Assembly (NCBI GenBank): GCA_020442665.1
Contig: JAGRJP010000109.1
Span: forward strand, 5,768-37,890
Reading direction: 5' to 3'
Source: Lysobacterales bacterium
GTDB lineage: Bacteria; Pseudomonadota; Gammaproteobacteria; Xanthomonadales; Marinicellaceae
Length of the DNA stretch: 32,123 nt
Each line of letters begins with the position of its first letter. The stretch's first letter is position 1. Below, in pieces: positions 5,716 to 25,963 of this stretch. The notes under the pieces were generated by a model. It saw only the letters and a program-made list of their open reading frames with translations. It had not been told where the DNA came from and did not search any database. The translations under genes and the position numbers were made by a program.

Positions 5716-6243
5716 TTATCTTGTACAAACATTGCCTGAATTTGCATCAGATTGCCTCACTCGACCGGAATTATTTATTATCAAGTTTTTTGCATAGTCA
5801 ATGCCTCGATCATCACAAAACGTAATTGTGACATTGGTCCCAGGGGAAAAACCTGTTCCGTCATATCTGATTTTTGAGCGGTAAACCGATGAAGTTGCTG
5901 AAATTTGTGTTTTCATGGGATTTTCAAATCGCAGTATCTCATCAGTTGCATCCAGTTCTCGGTTTCTGTTCTCATCAATAAAAACAATCCAGCCGTTATG
6001 CCAGTTGGAGTCAGCATCACAAGATTCCCCCGAAATACTTGGGCAAACAACTGTATATTTTTGTGAGTTGATTGCGTAACTTCGGGCAAAAGTCATTGAT
6101 GTGCTTAAACGACTCCTTTCCGTATCCAAATAATTATTCAGCATAAAACCTGAGAAGTTTGGCAGACCATAACCCAATAATATTGCCATAACAGATAGTG
6201 TTACCATCAACTCAACTAAAGAGAAACCACTTACTTTTTTCAT
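5716..6243 (-). CDS. GspH/FimT-type minor pseudopilin
   Basis: A 175-residue protein with a class III (prepilin peptidase) leader: MKKVSG cleaved before F7, then the hydrophobic helix FSLVELMVTLSVMAILLGYG with Glu at mature position 5 (E11). The C-terminal beta-rich domain resembles GspH/FimT/FimU minor pilins, which prime type IV pili or type II secretion pseudopili at the inner membrane. Four cysteines (residues about 62, 69, 153, 173) could form periplasmic disulphides. A clear AGGAAA Shine-Dalgarno precedes the ATG. No other pilin gene is adjacent, so it looks like an orphan FimT-like gene. It is divergent from the antiporter gene across 160 bp. Confidence 0.87.
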   Translation of the reverse strand: MKKVSGFSLVELMVTLSVMAILLGYGLPNFSGFMLNNYLDTERSRLSTSMTFARSYAINSQKYTVVCPSISGESCDADSNWHNGWIVFIDENRNRELDATDEILRFENPMKTQISATSSVYRSKIRYDGTGFSPGTNVTITFCDDRGIDYAKNLIINNSGRVRQSDANSGNVCTR

Positions 6244-21844: not shown

Positions 21845-22087
21845 CTATTCATCTTTTAGATGTGATTGATCACAGTAAGGCGGATTTTTTGTTTTTTTGC
21901 ACCCACAAAGATTGATGTAACTCAGTTCGTCCATACGGATCGGTACAGGCAAAAAATCGGTTCCCTTGTGTGACTCATTATCGCAATAGGGTGGGTTTTT
22001 ACTGCGTCCGCAAGCACACCACAAATAAGTTTTATTTTCTTGAAGCATCACCCCGTACGGACCATTTTTTGGACATTCCGGTTTCAT
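21845..22087 (-). CDS. double CDGSH iron-sulphur protein
   Basis: An 80-residue protein with two mitoNEET-type [2Fe-2S] motifs, each binding a cluster with three Cys and one His. The second is canonical: C61, C63, C72, H76 (CGCKKTKNPPYCDQSH). The first, C24, C26, C35 and H40 (CACGRSKNPPYCDNESH), has one extra residue between Cys and His. Such tandem proteins are redox or cluster-transfer proteins. No signal peptide. GGGGGA lies upstream. It is the last gene of the GTPase-roadblock-reductase-globin cluster, 34 nt after the globin, which suggests a place in that redox module. Confidence 0.88.
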   Translation of the reverse strand: MKPECPKNGPYGVMLQENKTYLWCACGRSKNPPYCDNESHKGTDFLPVPIRMDELSYINLCGCKKTKNPPYCDQSHLKDE

Positions 22088-22121
22088 AATTTCAATCCCC
22101 CAATAATTATTTTTTTAATTA

Positions 22122-22640
22122 TTAACCTCGGCATTCGTTACAAAACATCTCACCGGTTAAATCATGATAATGAACTTTTTCTCCAGGTGAAAGTTCTTTA
22201 TGGCAACCATCACAAATACCACCTATGTCCAGTATCATTTCTTCATAACCTTTAATCGGTTTAACTTCACCTTTATCAATTCTGGGCCACATTCTAGTTT
22301 TCACAATAGCGGCTCGATAACTTTCATTCAGCTCCAGCATTTGTGATAAAAAAGGCTCTTTAAATCCAAATTTAATACAACTATCAGCAAATAACTTTTC
22401 TCGATAATTAAACAACTTGTCCGAAATAATCATCCAATGATGTGCATTGCGAGGTCGGTCGCCAAAATAACAATCTTTTCCAGTAAAAACCTGATTCAAA
22501 AAAGCATACTGCTTGCCAACAATATGACTTTTTGTGACTCCTTTGAAAAATGGAGATAGTAAATCATCGGCTAATACTTTGTCATAAAAATCATTCAAAA
22601 TTTGATTGAGTAATTTACCCTCATCCAATGCTTTCCACAT
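22122..22640 (-). CDS. truncated haemoglobin with C-terminal zinc-ribbon-like tail
   Basis: A 172-residue protein. Residues 1-120 fit a truncated (2-on-2) globin: early helices DFYDKVLADDLLSPFFKG (17-34) and a proximal-His region NAHHWMIISDKLF (65-77), with H67 the likely haem ligand. Residues 143-170 add CDGC and CNEC pairs spaced as in a zinc ribbon, an uncommon extension. Truncated globins bind O2 or NO. Its position just after a ferredoxin-flavin reductase suggests NO dioxygenation or O2/NO sensing (inference). The ATG at 22640 has no Shine-Dalgarno; the open frame continues 11 codons upstream to a stop with no other start, so translation probably depends on coupling. Confidence 0.82.
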   Translation of the reverse strand: MWKALDEGKLLNQILNDFYDKVLADDLLSPFFKGVTKSHIVGKQYAFLNQVFTGKDCYFGDRPRNAHHWMIISDKLFNYREKLFADSCIKFGFKEPFLSQMLELNESYRAAIVKTRMWPRIDKGEVKPIKGYEEMILDIGGICDGCHKELSPGEKVHYHDLTGEMFCNECRG

Positions 22641-22673
22641 TTCAAGATCAGGAGTGAACTGACGTTTTTCTTC

Positions 22674-23681
22674 CTAAACAAACTCCATTTTATTGGAATC
22701 TTCTTCCGATTGGAAATACTCCGGGGTTTGCGCATATTCAAATGCATCACTGATAATTTTTTCTTCCAGAACTCCTTTATTTCTTGCTGTTTGAATAGAG
22801 GCTTTAACAAGTTTCGGATTTCCGTATAAATAAACCTCCCAATTTTCTAATAATTCAAATTTACCAAAAATCGAGTCCACACATTCTGATGAATCATTAT
22901 CAGTTAATATTTCAAATTGAAAATTTGGGTATTGATTGGATAAGTTTTTCAGTTCTTCAAGGTAGTAGGAATCTTCTTCGCTTTTTACAACATGCACCAA
23001 TTGAACTTCTTTGTGATATTCACCCATGAGGGATGCCTCTGCAATCGCAAAAGCAGCACCTAAACCGGAACCACTGGCAATTAATAATTTTCCCGCAACT
23101 GAATTATCATTACTGTCATAACTGGCACCCAAAGGATATTGAACTTGTAATTCATCACCAATTTCTGCATTTTCAAAGACCCATTGACTGAAAACACCAT
23201 TATCAATTCTTTTTACATGAATGGAAATAATACTTTCGCTACCTTGAAAATGATTGGTAATTGAGTAACTACGGACTTTATTATCAAGTTTTGTTCGAAT
23301 ATTAACAAACTGACCTGTTTTAAATTCAAGGGTTTCCGCATCCGGCTTAAATGATACTGAAAAAATCGTTTCCGAAAGCTCTTCAATTGAAGTCACTCTG
23401 GCTTGAGAGAAAATATCCTCAATCAAAGGCAGAGATAAAACCATATCACCTTCGGGATAACAGCGACATGGAAGAATATGATTTGACTCTTTTAACTGCT
23501 TGGATAGCCCAGATTGAGAAGGTTCGCAAATGCTGCCTGAGACAACTTTAGTAACACAGGCATGGCATGTTCCATTCCTACAGGAAAATGGAATATCAAT
23601 CTTATTCCTGAAAAAAGCATCCAGCAAATTTTCATTATCTTTACAATGAAAATGATGAGTGCCGAAAATTATTTTGGGCAT
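22674..23681 (-). CDS. ferredoxin-flavin NAD(P)H oxidoreductase
   Basis: A 335-residue electron-transfer protein with an N-terminal plant-type [2Fe-2S] ferredoxin domain (about 1-85; C34, C39, C42 and C72) followed by a ferredoxin-NADP+ reductase-type module. FAD-binding RSYSITN lies at 137-143, GQFVNIR at 123-129 and the NAD(P)-binding GSGLGAAFAIAEA near 204-216. This order matches reductase components of bacterial oxygenases (benzoate dioxygenase reductase type). No oxygenase is adjacent; the globin downstream is the obvious acceptor. The stop lies 33 nt before the globin ATG, and a roadblock gene ends 6 nt upstream. The ribosome site is weak. Confidence 0.88.
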   Translation of the reverse strand: MPKIIFGTHHFHCKDNENLLDAFFRNKIDIPFSCRNGTCHACVTKVVSGSICEPSQSGLSKQLKESNHILPCRCYPEGDMVLSLPLIEDIFSQARVTSIEELSETIFSVSFKPDAETLEFKTGQFVNIRTKLDNKVRSYSITNHFQGSESIISIHVKRIDNGVFSQWVFENAEIGDELQVQYPLGASYDSNDNSVAGKLLIASGSGLGAAFAIAEASLMGEYHKEVQLVHVVKSEEDSYYLEELKNLSNQYPNFQFEILTDNDSSECVDSIFGKFELLENWEVYLYGNPKLVKASIQTARNKGVLEEKIISDAFEYAQTPEYFQSEEDSNKMEFV

Positions 23682-23687
23682 GATAAC

Positions 23688-24089
23688 TTACATTAGGTTT
23701 TGTTCGTCTAGAACCTTATTGATTTCCTTAGTCGTTATTTTGGCAAATGTAATCATTTTCCCGAGGTTGACCAAACGATCACATATAACCCCAAAAAACA
23801 GAGAGTCTTCTTTATCCTGAACTTTAAAAAGCCCAAGGATATTTTTATCCATGATTACAATATTGTCTTGCAGAGTTTGTTTTAAAAGTTGCGAAGCTAA
23901 AGTCTCAGAAATACCCAAAACTGAACCTGCCATTGGTGAAACCTGGCCTAGTGGATGCTCGAATCGGGAGCGATCCAGTAATAAATGTCCATCTAATGTC
24001 GCAATAAAAACAGATTCCGTACTGCTGACGTTACCCAAATAGTCATTCAATACACGCTTCAATTCAACCAATAAATCTTTTTCTGACAT
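23688..24089 (-). CDS. roadblock/LC7 domain protein
   Basis: A 133-residue protein resembling the roadblock/LC7 fold, whose bacterial members (MglB, CvnB) act on small GTPases. Visible features are the N-terminal helix LLVELKRVLNDYLG, the strand-turn SVFIATLDGHLLLDRS (26-41), the central helix GSVLGISETLASQLLKQ (55-71) and paired strands NIVIMDKNILGLFKVQ and SLFFGVICD. Likely a regulator of the GTPase encoded upstream. AAGGGAG precedes the ATG. A hairpin in the 71-nt gap from the preceding roadblock-like gene may separate expression. The reductase gene follows after 6 nt. Confidence 0.8.
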   Translation of the reverse strand: MSEKDLLVELKRVLNDYLGNVSSTESVFIATLDGHLLLDRSRFEHPLGQVSPMAGSVLGISETLASQLLKQTLQDNIVIMDKNILGLFKVQDKEDSLFFGVICDRLVNLGKMITFAKITTKEINKVLDEQNLM

Positions 24090-24105
24090 AAAACTCCCTT
24101 AATCC

Positions 24106-24136
24106 GAGTACGCTGTGAAATGATTCAAGCGCACTC
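24106..24136 (-). other. intergenic RNA hairpin inside the GTPase-roadblock operon
   Basis: The transcript reads GAGTGCGCT (24136-24128), a 13-nt loop, then AGCGTACTC (24114-24106), a 9-bp stem with one G-U pair. No U-run follows, and the Shine-Dalgarno of the next gene begins a few bases later. It could be a processing or stability element, or occlude the ribosome site. Function unknown. Confidence 0.5.
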
Positions 24137-24160
24137 AGGTTACAAACATATATTAATAAT

Positions 24161-24556
24161 TTAGATACTATCGTTTTTAAGAATGGTACGCCCCTTAGTT
24201 ACCACTAACCCCAAATTAGCATCTATTCTACACACGACTGTAGCAACAATCTGTGGCATAGAGGGAACCCGCATAAATAAATGAATCAGGTTTTTTGAGT
24301 TCACAATTATTTCCTGAAAATAAGGATCAGTATTGGAATCACCTCTTGATTTCTTGAATGTTTTATCAATCATCATTGACATATCACCTTCAAATAGTTC
24401 TTTGGTGGCTGCAACCAGCATATCCATAATTTCTTGTGGATGTGAATCAGTCGTTTTAACCGCCAACAACATTTCGGTTTACATATCAACTAAACCGGCA
24501 GCCAATGCTTTAGGAACTTCTCCTAATAATGACTTACAAATTGAATCAGCACTCAT
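24161..24556 (-). pseudogene. roadblock-like gene interrupted by an in-frame TAA (possible restart)
   Basis: One reading frame of 132 codons starts at ATG 24556, with a good Shine-Dalgarno (GAGGAT) upstream. It encodes MSADSICKSLLGEVPKALAA then GLVDM and meets TAA at codon 26 (24479-24481). After ACC GAA, an ATG at 24472 continues the same frame for 103 residues (MLLAVKTTDSHPQEIMDMLV and onward). From memory, intact homologues read through here with a sequence like VDMxTGMLLAVKT, so the two pieces look like one small roadblock-like protein. Either the gene is broken, the stop is a sequence error or recoded, or the short gap allows translation to restart. No frameshift is involved and the downstream part shows no other damage. 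Confidence 0.7.
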
Positions 24557-24663
24557 GTTATTATCCTCAATATTTTAATAGAATTATTTTTAATGCAACA
24601 ACATATGTTACATAAATCATGTTATATGATTAGTCACGCTTTGCAAAGTGAAACATAGGCTTA

Positions 24664-24681
24664 TTGTGAAGTTCGTCACAA
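24664..24681 (-). promoter_or_regulatory. CRP-type binding site
   Basis: TTGTGAAGTTCGTCACAA is an 18-bp inverted repeat containing the exact CRP core TGTGA-N6-TCACA (24665-24680). On the minus strand a -10-like TATAAC (24626-24621) would place a transcription start near 24614, about 58 bp downstream of the site centre, close to class I spacing. It implies a second, CRP-controlled promoter for the roadblock-reductase-globin part of the operon. No crp gene lies in the window. Confidence 0.6.
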
Positions 24682-24723
24682 AAATATCCAACTTCAAATA
24701 ACTATCTTAAAATCATAGTAGCA

Positions 24724-25848
24724 CTATGACTTTATCAACTTAAATGCTTTCGGATTAGTAATATTTTGTTTATTTTCAATATCTTGAGATAAATCTGCAG
24801 AACTTAAATTATCAATAACATCTTCCAATAATATCATCACATCATCCTTGCTTCTAGGATCAATACTGTAGATTCCTGACAATTTAGGAAACTCACTTTC
24901 AATTAAATCTTTAAATGAAGCTAAGTCAACCGGAAACAAATCGCAATGAGTGAGTGCACAAAATACATTTTCGGAGTTCCCAATCTCGGTATGTAGAAAT
25001 CTGAGATAAAATTTAAGATACATCATTGGTTCCGGACGAGATAAATCCATTAATATCACAAATGCATCCGCTGACTTGCCAACCACATCCCACAGAAAAT
25101 TAAATTTGACCTGCCCGGGTGTTCCAAAAAGCTGTAACTTTAAACCATCATTAACCTGTACCTCTGAATAATCAATGCCAACTGTGGTTTTTTCTTTATC
25201 TTTTGCAACAATATCTGTGGCTGCCACTTCCGATCCCAGAGCTTTACCATCAGATACAGTTTGCAAAGCAGTTGTCTTACCTGAACCAGGACTACCTAAA
25301 AATACCACTTTTTTTAATTTTATTTGCTCAAGTTGAATTTTCTGTGTAATGCGGCTGATAAATTTTTTCTTTCGATCCTGTTCTATTTGAACCATTTCAC
25401 GGCCTTTTCGACCAAGGAAATTACTTCTAATACTCTCAAATGCTGATTTAAAGCGATTAGCCACTGACTTTTTCTCTAGTAGGTTCGATTCCTGAACTTC
25501 ATCATTACCAACAGGAGTGAAATGGACTTCACGAGAGATTCTGTTTAATACTCCCCGAATTGTTGTTGTATTAAGGGGAGGGGTAATTTGATATTTATAC
25601 TTATGTTCATCAACAGTTATATGCGGTGTCTTTTTTACAACAACCACCACTTGAGCCTGGCTTTTATTACTTTCAGCAATAGTTTCCAAATACTCATCAA
25701 GAATAAAACAGACGTGACAATCTACAAACTCATCGGCGAACAACCAATTGTCTGTCAGACTTCCTCGTATTAAATTGCAATAACTTCTCAGTTTTGTTGC
25801 ATTACTCGGACAAACTCCCGCCGTTGATAGAATTCTGTCTTTCTTCAT
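24724..25848 (-). CDS. Ras-like small GTPase with uncharacterised N-terminal domain
   Basis: A 374-residue protein. Residues about 178-355 form a small-GTPase domain: P-loop GSPGSGKTT (185-193), switch I TTVGID (221-226), switch II LFGTPGQ (240-246) and THCD (300-303) in place of the NKxD base-recognition motif. This resembles MglA/Arf-like and actinobacterial CvnD-type GTPases. The N-terminal about 175 residues are unassigned; the QVVVVVKK strand and the ITPPLNTTTIRGVLNRI stretch hint at a degenerate receiver-like fold. ATG 25848 is preferred: AGAGAGGTGG lies just upstream and a strong promoter overlaps the longer in-frame start at 25926. First gene of the roadblock/redox cluster. Confidence 0.85.
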   Translation of the reverse strand: MKKDRILSTAGVCPSNATKLRSYCNLIRGSLTDNWLFADEFVDCHVCFILDEYLETIAESNKSQAQVVVVVKKTPHITVDEHKYKYQITPPLNTTTIRGVLNRISREVHFTPVGNDEVQESNLLEKKSVANRFKSAFESIRSNFLGRKGREMVQIEQDRKKKFISRITQKIQLEQIKLKKVVFLGSPGSGKTTALQTVSDGKALGSEVAATDIVAKDKEKTTVGIDYSEVQVNDGLKLQLFGTPGQVKFNFLWDVVGKSADAFVILMDLSRPEPMMYLKFYLRFLHTEIGNSENVFCALTHCDLFPVDLASFKDLIESEFPKLSGIYSIDPRSKDDVMILLEDVIDNLSSADLSQDIENKQNITNPKAFKLIKS

Positions 25849-25897
25849 TCTTAGCCACCTCTCTTTTATATCCCCTTTCCCAACCAAGGATAGGCTC

Positions 25898-25926
25898 ATA
25901 TTAAAGCAGTTGCTAATATAAGTCAA
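25898..25926 (-). promoter_or_regulatory. sigma70 promoter of the GTPase gene
   Basis: On the minus strand: -35 TTGACT (25926-25921), 17-bp spacer, -10 TAATAT (25903-25898). Both hexamers match consensus at 5/6. The predicted start near 25891 leaves a leader of about 43 nt to the ATG at 25848. Confidence 0.75.
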
Positions 25927-25947
25927 TGTAACCCATCAGTGCTTTCT

Positions 25948-25963
25948 GTCAACAATTGTTAAC
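25948..25963. promoter_or_regulatory. palindrome upstream of the GTPase promoter
   Basis: GTCAACAATTGTTAAC is a 16-bp inverted repeat with a perfect 10-bp core AACAATTGTT and one mismatched pair. It is centred about 65 bp upstream of the predicted GTPase transcription start, a usual place for an activator site. The binding protein is unknown. Confidence 0.45.

Follow-up and report, generated by a model that had tools for sequence, protein, structure and literature searches.

A truncated globin-reductase fusion encoded beside roadblock and Ras-like GTPase genes, a candidate haem or redox input to a bacterial small-GTPase switch

The window analysed here is a 32,123-nucleotide stretch (positions 5,768 to 37,890 of contig JAGRJP010000109.1, assembly GCA_020442665.1) from a Lysobacterales bacterium of the Marinicellaceae. 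Its minus strand carries a compact cluster in which genes for a Ras-like GTPase and two roadblock proteins, termed RB1 and RB2, adjoin genes for a reductase-globin fusion and a CDGSH iron-sulphur protein. A first-pass annotation, made from the letters alone, had listed six minus-strand features in this order, and all are present at the coordinates it gave. The reductase and globin, which it had counted as separate genes, are instead the two halves of one. The cluster comprises the following features.

24724..25848, minus strand: Ras-like GTPase, predicted Group 3 MglA type, with an N-terminal extension of ~170 amino acids (Pfam Roc/Ras/Arf; motifs)
24161..24556, minus strand: RB1, divergent protein of predicted roadblock fold, with an in-frame TAA at 24481-24479 (alignment with intact relatives, model, fold search)
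23688..24089, minus strand: RB2, roadblock/LC7 protein (family profile against solved structures)
22122..23681, minus strand: fusion gene (reductase, globin and four-cysteine tail), split by TAG 22676-22674 (single open reading frame in relatives)
22674..23681, minus strand: reductase half with Fer2, FAD-binding and NAD-binding domains (Pfam; fold match)
22122..22640, minus strand: globin half with a C-terminal CxxC...CxxC tail (PF01152, E 6.7e-7)
21845..22087, minus strand: double CDGSH iron-sulphur protein, 34 nt downstream of the globin (PF09360, two zf-CDGSH stretches, E 2.8e-15)
25925..25952, minus strand: promoter-like site ahead of the GTPase gene, TTGACA-16-TACATT (10/12 consensus matches; weak evidence)

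RB2 and the reductase are separated by 6 nt, RB1 and RB2 by 71 nt, and the GTPase and RB1 by ~170 nt. The reductase open reading frame (ORF) ends at the TAG, and the same frame runs on through the globin. In relatives the full-length product joins a reductase with 2Fe-2S, flavin adenine dinucleotide (FAD) and nicotinamide adenine dinucleotide (NAD) domains to a group-1 truncated globin and a four-cysteine zinc-ribbon-like tail. It forms a single ORF in L033, L034 and L036, in L041 from the same genus, and in L040, the near-identical sister genome (Lysobacterales metagenome-assembled genome HKST-UBA248, globin 99% identical).

Group-1 truncated haemoglobins are the matches of the globin in the PDB (E 3.7e-12 to a Tetrahymena member). 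A Phe-Tyr pair, an F8-type His and all four cysteines of the tail are unchanged in 38/38 fusions, and the distal position is occupied by Gln in 28, Val in nine and Ser in one. Residue labels such as F8 and B10 presumably hold for this family; we take them from alignment to solved truncated globins and from general family knowledge. The sequence match, the proximal His and the distal Tyr together point to a group-1 truncated haemoglobin. The protein falls outside the flavohaemoglobin class, in which an N-terminal 3/3 globin precedes a FAD/NAD module, since its globin is truncated and lies C-terminal to the reductase. The modelled reductase is similar in fold to GcoB and benzoate dioxygenase reductase, and the reductase also aligns with flavohaemoglobin. 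A scan of public genomes with a globin profile yielded 157 relatives, and among the best 80, the loci examined, the complete fusion occurs in 47, a ferredoxin-globin form in 10, a partial reductase in seven and the globin part alone in 14. The invariant part is thus the globin with its cysteine tail, and the electron supply varies from full reductase to ferredoxin only to none.

Domain searches recovered neither roadblock protein: RB2 alone has no Pfam match, RB1 has none in Pfam or NCBIfam, and a Pfam Robl_LC7 search of the window's own genome missed both. The RB2 family profile matches solved structures strongly (7f8m, E 1.6e-26; CvnB5, E 1.2e-15), and by this profile evidence RB2 is identified as a roadblock/LC7 protein. 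Because a search of the RB1 sequence against the PDB gave nothing significant, its roadblock identity needed a model. The AlphaFold model of the RB1 family (mean predicted local distance difference test, pLDDT, 90.9) finds its best PDB matches in MglB/roadblock proteins (E ~1e-7, template-modelling score ~0.7), and profile comparison of the RB1 family with RB2 returns a probability of 95% (E 4e-8). The model thus indicates a roadblock fold for RB1. Fifteen other genomes (L170-L184) have a distantly related RB1 family, which is found mostly with GTPase, RB2 and receiver genes. It often adjoins a protein of ~480 amino acids with a C-terminal calcineurin-like phosphoesterase instead of the globin and the ATP-binding cassette (ABC)-ATPase/dual-specificity-phosphatase fusion described below, and a phosphatase partner may therefore be general.

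The GTPase ORF is open to a TTG at 25926; the likely ATG at 25848 was chosen by alignment with L161. Its motifs are GxxGxGKTT, TT in G2 (TTV), GTPGQ in G3, a Lys-less G4 in which TRM/THC replaces [NT]KxD, and D-x-R in G5 (IDPR; mostly VDAR/VDGR in the family). Across 30 relatives, G3 is GTPGQ in 23/30 and G[VAS]PGQ in the remainder, and the G2 TT is present in 30/30. Group 3 MglA proteins, as defined by Wuichet and Sogaard-Andersen (2014, PMC4316618), have GTPGQ in G3, Thr for the Group 1 Arg in G2, a Lys-less G4 and a D-A-R-type G5, and by G2, G3, G4 and G5 the window GTPase would belong with them. RB1 and RB2 supply the one or two roadblock genes that accompany Group 3 GTPases, and the distribution in beta- and gammaproteobacteria agrees as well. 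Relatives also encode the Group 3 partner with a receiver-like N-terminus and a winged-helix-like C-terminus; none was found beside the window cluster, and the window's own genome holds only weak matches to it. The window GTPase differs from Group 3 systems in its N-terminal extension and in having no separate receiver/winged-helix gene nearby. We considered the extension as a fused receiver and rejected it; it is collinear with the partner but not significantly matched (probability 3.6%). The analogy with Streptomyces conservons (CvnA-D; Group 2 MglA) drawn in the first-pass annotation is borne out to the extent that the GTPase shows features that PMC4316618 gives for both Group 2 and Group 3. 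A GTPGQ-type GTPase and a CvnB-like roadblock are shared, and redox genes can adjoin conservons too. The cluster is not a four-gene conservon, however: CvnA histidine kinase and CvnC homologues are absent from it, and its redox partner is a truncated globin-reductase, whereas that of conservons is a P450.

To survey gene neighbourhoods, each neighbour family was sought with hidden Markov models, and a requirement of at least 3.5 kb of flank on each side left 53 loci. Within 3.5 kb of the globin, RB1 was found in 36, an ABC-ATPase/dual-specificity-phosphatase gene in 36, the GTPase in 28, the receiver-like/winged-helix protein in 25 and RB2 in 23. For the 35 loci of beta- and gammaproteobacteria the corresponding numbers are 30, 29, 28, 25 (weak receiver matches) and 23, and the commonest order is receiver/winged-helix, GTPase, ABC/phosphatase, RB1, RB2, fusion. 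Assuming five GTPases per genome, ~1% of loci would be expected to have one this close, and the gene set recurs far above chance. Outside these two classes the GTPase is missing near the globin, and RB1 and the ABC/phosphatase gene are sometimes still nearby; at about one third of flanked loci, mostly outside beta- and gammaproteobacteria, the globin has none of the other genes near it. The adjacency of GTPase, roadblock, reductase and globin across genera, which the first-pass annotation had proposed as a check, is therefore recurrent, and the outcome that it held would speak against it, homologues usually lying apart, is not seen in beta- and gammaproteobacteria. Its core gene list stands, although it overlooked the recurrent ABC-ATPase/phosphatase partner, and the CDGSH gene that it included is local to the window lineage. 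As a core part CDGSH was rejected, clear adjacency to the fusion occurring, among the loci surveyed, only in the window, L040 and L041.

The ABC/phosphatase gene of the window's genome lies on another contig (L037, G000:C356:3000-12000). This locus also holds a second, extended GTPase, a roadblock, an Aer-like PAS protein, a phosphonate-binding-like protein and, alongside, a winged-helix/roadblock-like gene and an unknown of 140 amino acids; the sister retains the locus at 99% identity, and G378 (L161) has part of it. The search for recurrent neighbours returned receiver-, PAS- and kinase-type signalling proteins and a CxxCxxCC protein, and no denitrification gene stood out. The CxxCxxCC protein, putatively zinc- or iron-chelating, is encoded between RB2 and the fusion in ~12 loci (for example, L052:926-1324 and L034:10421-10867), and its gene is absent from the window.

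The association of globin and RB1 holds even when the genes are unlinked. No RB1 lies within 3.5 kb of the globin in 20 genomes from Acidobacteriota, Nitrospirota, Myxococcota, Bacteroidota and alpha-, beta- and gammaproteobacteria, yet 18/20 carry a close RB1 elsewhere, mostly beside the ABC/phosphatase gene; the base rate for RB1 of 8/369 covers gammaproteobacteria only. That base rate comes from an even sample of 369 gammaproteobacteria, in which a close RB1 occurs in eight and the globin-tail protein in five, all five within those eight (p 1e-9, kinship ignored). The dependence is one-way: RB1 is near-obligate where the globin occurs, and the reverse does not hold. For globin, RB1, ABC/phosphatase, GTPase and RB2, distances are correlated with one another (r 0.74-0.91), as joint descent would also predict. 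Specificity for nitric oxide (NO) was sought through co-occurrence with the NO-metabolism marker NnrS and found no support, NnrS being no commoner in globin-positive genomes (23/31 vs 24/35).

Both in-frame stops of the window fall within the GTPase/globin cluster, and the other long window genes are intact. The RB1 copy with the TAA is the only one in the genome. In the sister genome the fusion is intact, but the GTPase gene has an in-frame TAA, its contig ends in transposase-like sequence just beyond that gene (L156:1-1625), and a search found no RB1. Programmed recoding was rejected, since relatives lack stops here; decay specific to the lineage, or an assembly error, accounts for them better, and we read the two stops as probably recent decay in the window lineage, with an error of assembly as the alternative. 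The ratios of nonsynonymous to synonymous substitution (omega) against the sister are 0.09 for the fusion, 0.10 for the GTPase, 0.07 for alkaline phosphatase and 0.01 for uvrA, by which measure the fusion and GTPase are evidently still under purifying selection. Between the two genomes the GTPase has diverged to an unusual degree (synonymous divergence ~1.2 vs ~0.25 for neighbours). The window copy may nonetheless be decaying and may not work. A same-genus genome has tandem extended GTPase copies, one of them split by an in-frame stop (L158:1224-3534).

We interpret the window cluster as a widespread module in damaged form, a haem/iron-sulphur redox protein providing the input to a small-GTPase switch, and give this reading a probability of roughly one half. 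In this module, electrons from reduced NAD (NADH) would pass through FAD and the 2Fe-2S cluster to the group-1 truncated globin, which would bind O2 or NO. RB1 would then receive the ligand or redox state of the haem, probably through the invariant zinc-ribbon-like tail, and would work with the ABC-ATPase/dual-specificity phosphatase. In beta- and gammaproteobacteria, RB1 and RB2 may together decide which nucleotide the Group 3 MglA GTPase binds. The GTPase would act with the receiver-like/winged-helix protein, and because the partner is of this type the output is probably gene expression. A transcriptional output has been proposed for Group 3 MglA systems (PMC4316618). Binding between the parts, the direction of signalling, the ligand and the output are all inferred. 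At somewhat less than even odds, the module would constitute a new class of haem signalling, in which a truncated globin with an NADH/2Fe-2S supply and a zinc-ribbon-like tail controls a new roadblock family (RB1), the ABC/phosphatase and, through them, in beta- and gammaproteobacteria, a Ras-like GTPase as an O2-, NO- or redox-gated switch.

Several observations weigh against this interpretation. RB1 occurs without the globin in 3/8 RB1-positive gammaproteobacteria, and the sample of 80 loci leans toward relatives of the window copy. Outside beta- and gammaproteobacteria no GTPase lies near the globin, and the GTPase may therefore not be what the haem protein acts on directly. An enzyme, moreover, would need just such a fused NADH reductase, and the main rival holds that the fusion is itself the output, an NO dioxygenase or another haem oxidase driven by NADH, flavohaemoglobin-like but built on a truncated globin and controlled by the GTPase/phosphatase. 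Turnover would be well served by the reductase, FAD and ferredoxin parts, the likeness to oxygenase reductases and the alignment with flavohaemoglobin agree with such a role, the distal Tyr and mostly Gln recall HbN-type globins, and truncated haemoglobins are known to partner ferredoxin reductases, the two sharing a single operon under NsrR control in Legionella (PMC3820574). An enzyme would have no need of the invariant tail, however, the distal Gln is replaced in 10/38, NnrS is not enriched, and globin-only and ferredoxin-globin forms, which lack a full reductase, still have RB1 and the phosphatase as neighbours. A constant globin and tail accompanying RB1 and phosphatase, with a variable electron supply, appears to fit RB1 reading the haem state better than a reductase-dependent enzyme, without proving it. 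We prefer the view that haem brings a redox or gas signal into the switch, and regard the enzyme as the output as unlikely, if still a serious contender.

Chance or joint transfer might also have placed unrelated GTPase/roadblock and haem-redox functions side by side. The CDGSH gene does behave in this manner, as do the loci in which the globin stands apart from the other genes, but the same order in many beta- and gammaproteobacterial genera, a GTPase within 3.5 kb at 28/35 loci and the survival of RB1-globin co-occurrence after loss of linkage already largely refute mere neighbourhood, which we consider highly improbable. That the window copy still works as split proteins, through restart after the stops or read-through, with reductase and globin as separate subunits, also seems improbable, though less so. 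ATGs lie close behind both stops, globin-only relatives adjoining RB1 exist (L035, L043 and L085), and purifying selection persists. Against this, a low omega says no more than that the damage, if there is any, is recent, and the stop in RB1 costs the protein its conserved first 25 residues. None of the other genomes surveyed carries stops where the window does, and the sister is damaged differently.

The GTPase core of the module is of an already known kind, that of the Group 3 systems, which are conserved but of unknown function (PMC4316618); the haem-reductase/RB1/ABC-phosphatase extension is the apparently new part. The survey in PMC4316618 mentions neither globin/reductase nor ABC-ATPase/phosphatase, and none of the open-access papers searched describes the extension. 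That the first-pass annotation knew of no described system with this gene set likewise agrees with the searches of open-access full texts. As a link between globin and roadblock, the nearest precedent is HGbRL of Methylacidiphilum (PMC4476040), a haem globin joined to a Roadblock/LC7 domain and proposed as a sensor, and by analogy it lends support to a haem input. HGbRL is a flavohaemoglobin-type (3/3-like) globin within one protein, lacks a reductase and is confined to Methylacidiphilum, whereas the module described here has a group-1 truncated globin, encoded separately from the roadblock and distributed across many phyla. As in flavohaemoglobin (Hmp) and the pairs of truncated haemoglobin and ferredoxin reductase, NADH electrons would reach the globin through an FNR-type reductase, but the fusion differs from these in its C-terminal truncated globin, extra 2Fe-2S domain, four-cysteine tail and linkage to roadblock, phosphatase and GTPase genes.

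Input signals of bacterial MglA-type switches beyond motility and conservons are largely open, and a near-obligate haem/redox partner offers a concrete, testable input. That a GTPase switch travels with a self-powered haem protein suggests that O2, NO or redox state is fed into it. The module would provide a second and more widespread globin-roadblock link beside HGbRL, and it places both the ABC-ATPase/phosphatase fusion and RB1, a family without annotation, in a context.

Shuffled sequence would be expected to hold 16.4 promoter-like sites, and the region has 20. Scans of the whole window for Rfam families and tRNAs gave no matches. Elsewhere in the window, a 4-hydroxyphenylpyruvate dioxygenase-like gene (653-1678) adjoins a homogentisate dioxygenase-like gene (1678-2811, weak matches to both HgmA domains), an ordinary catabolic pair unrelated to the GTPase/globin cluster.

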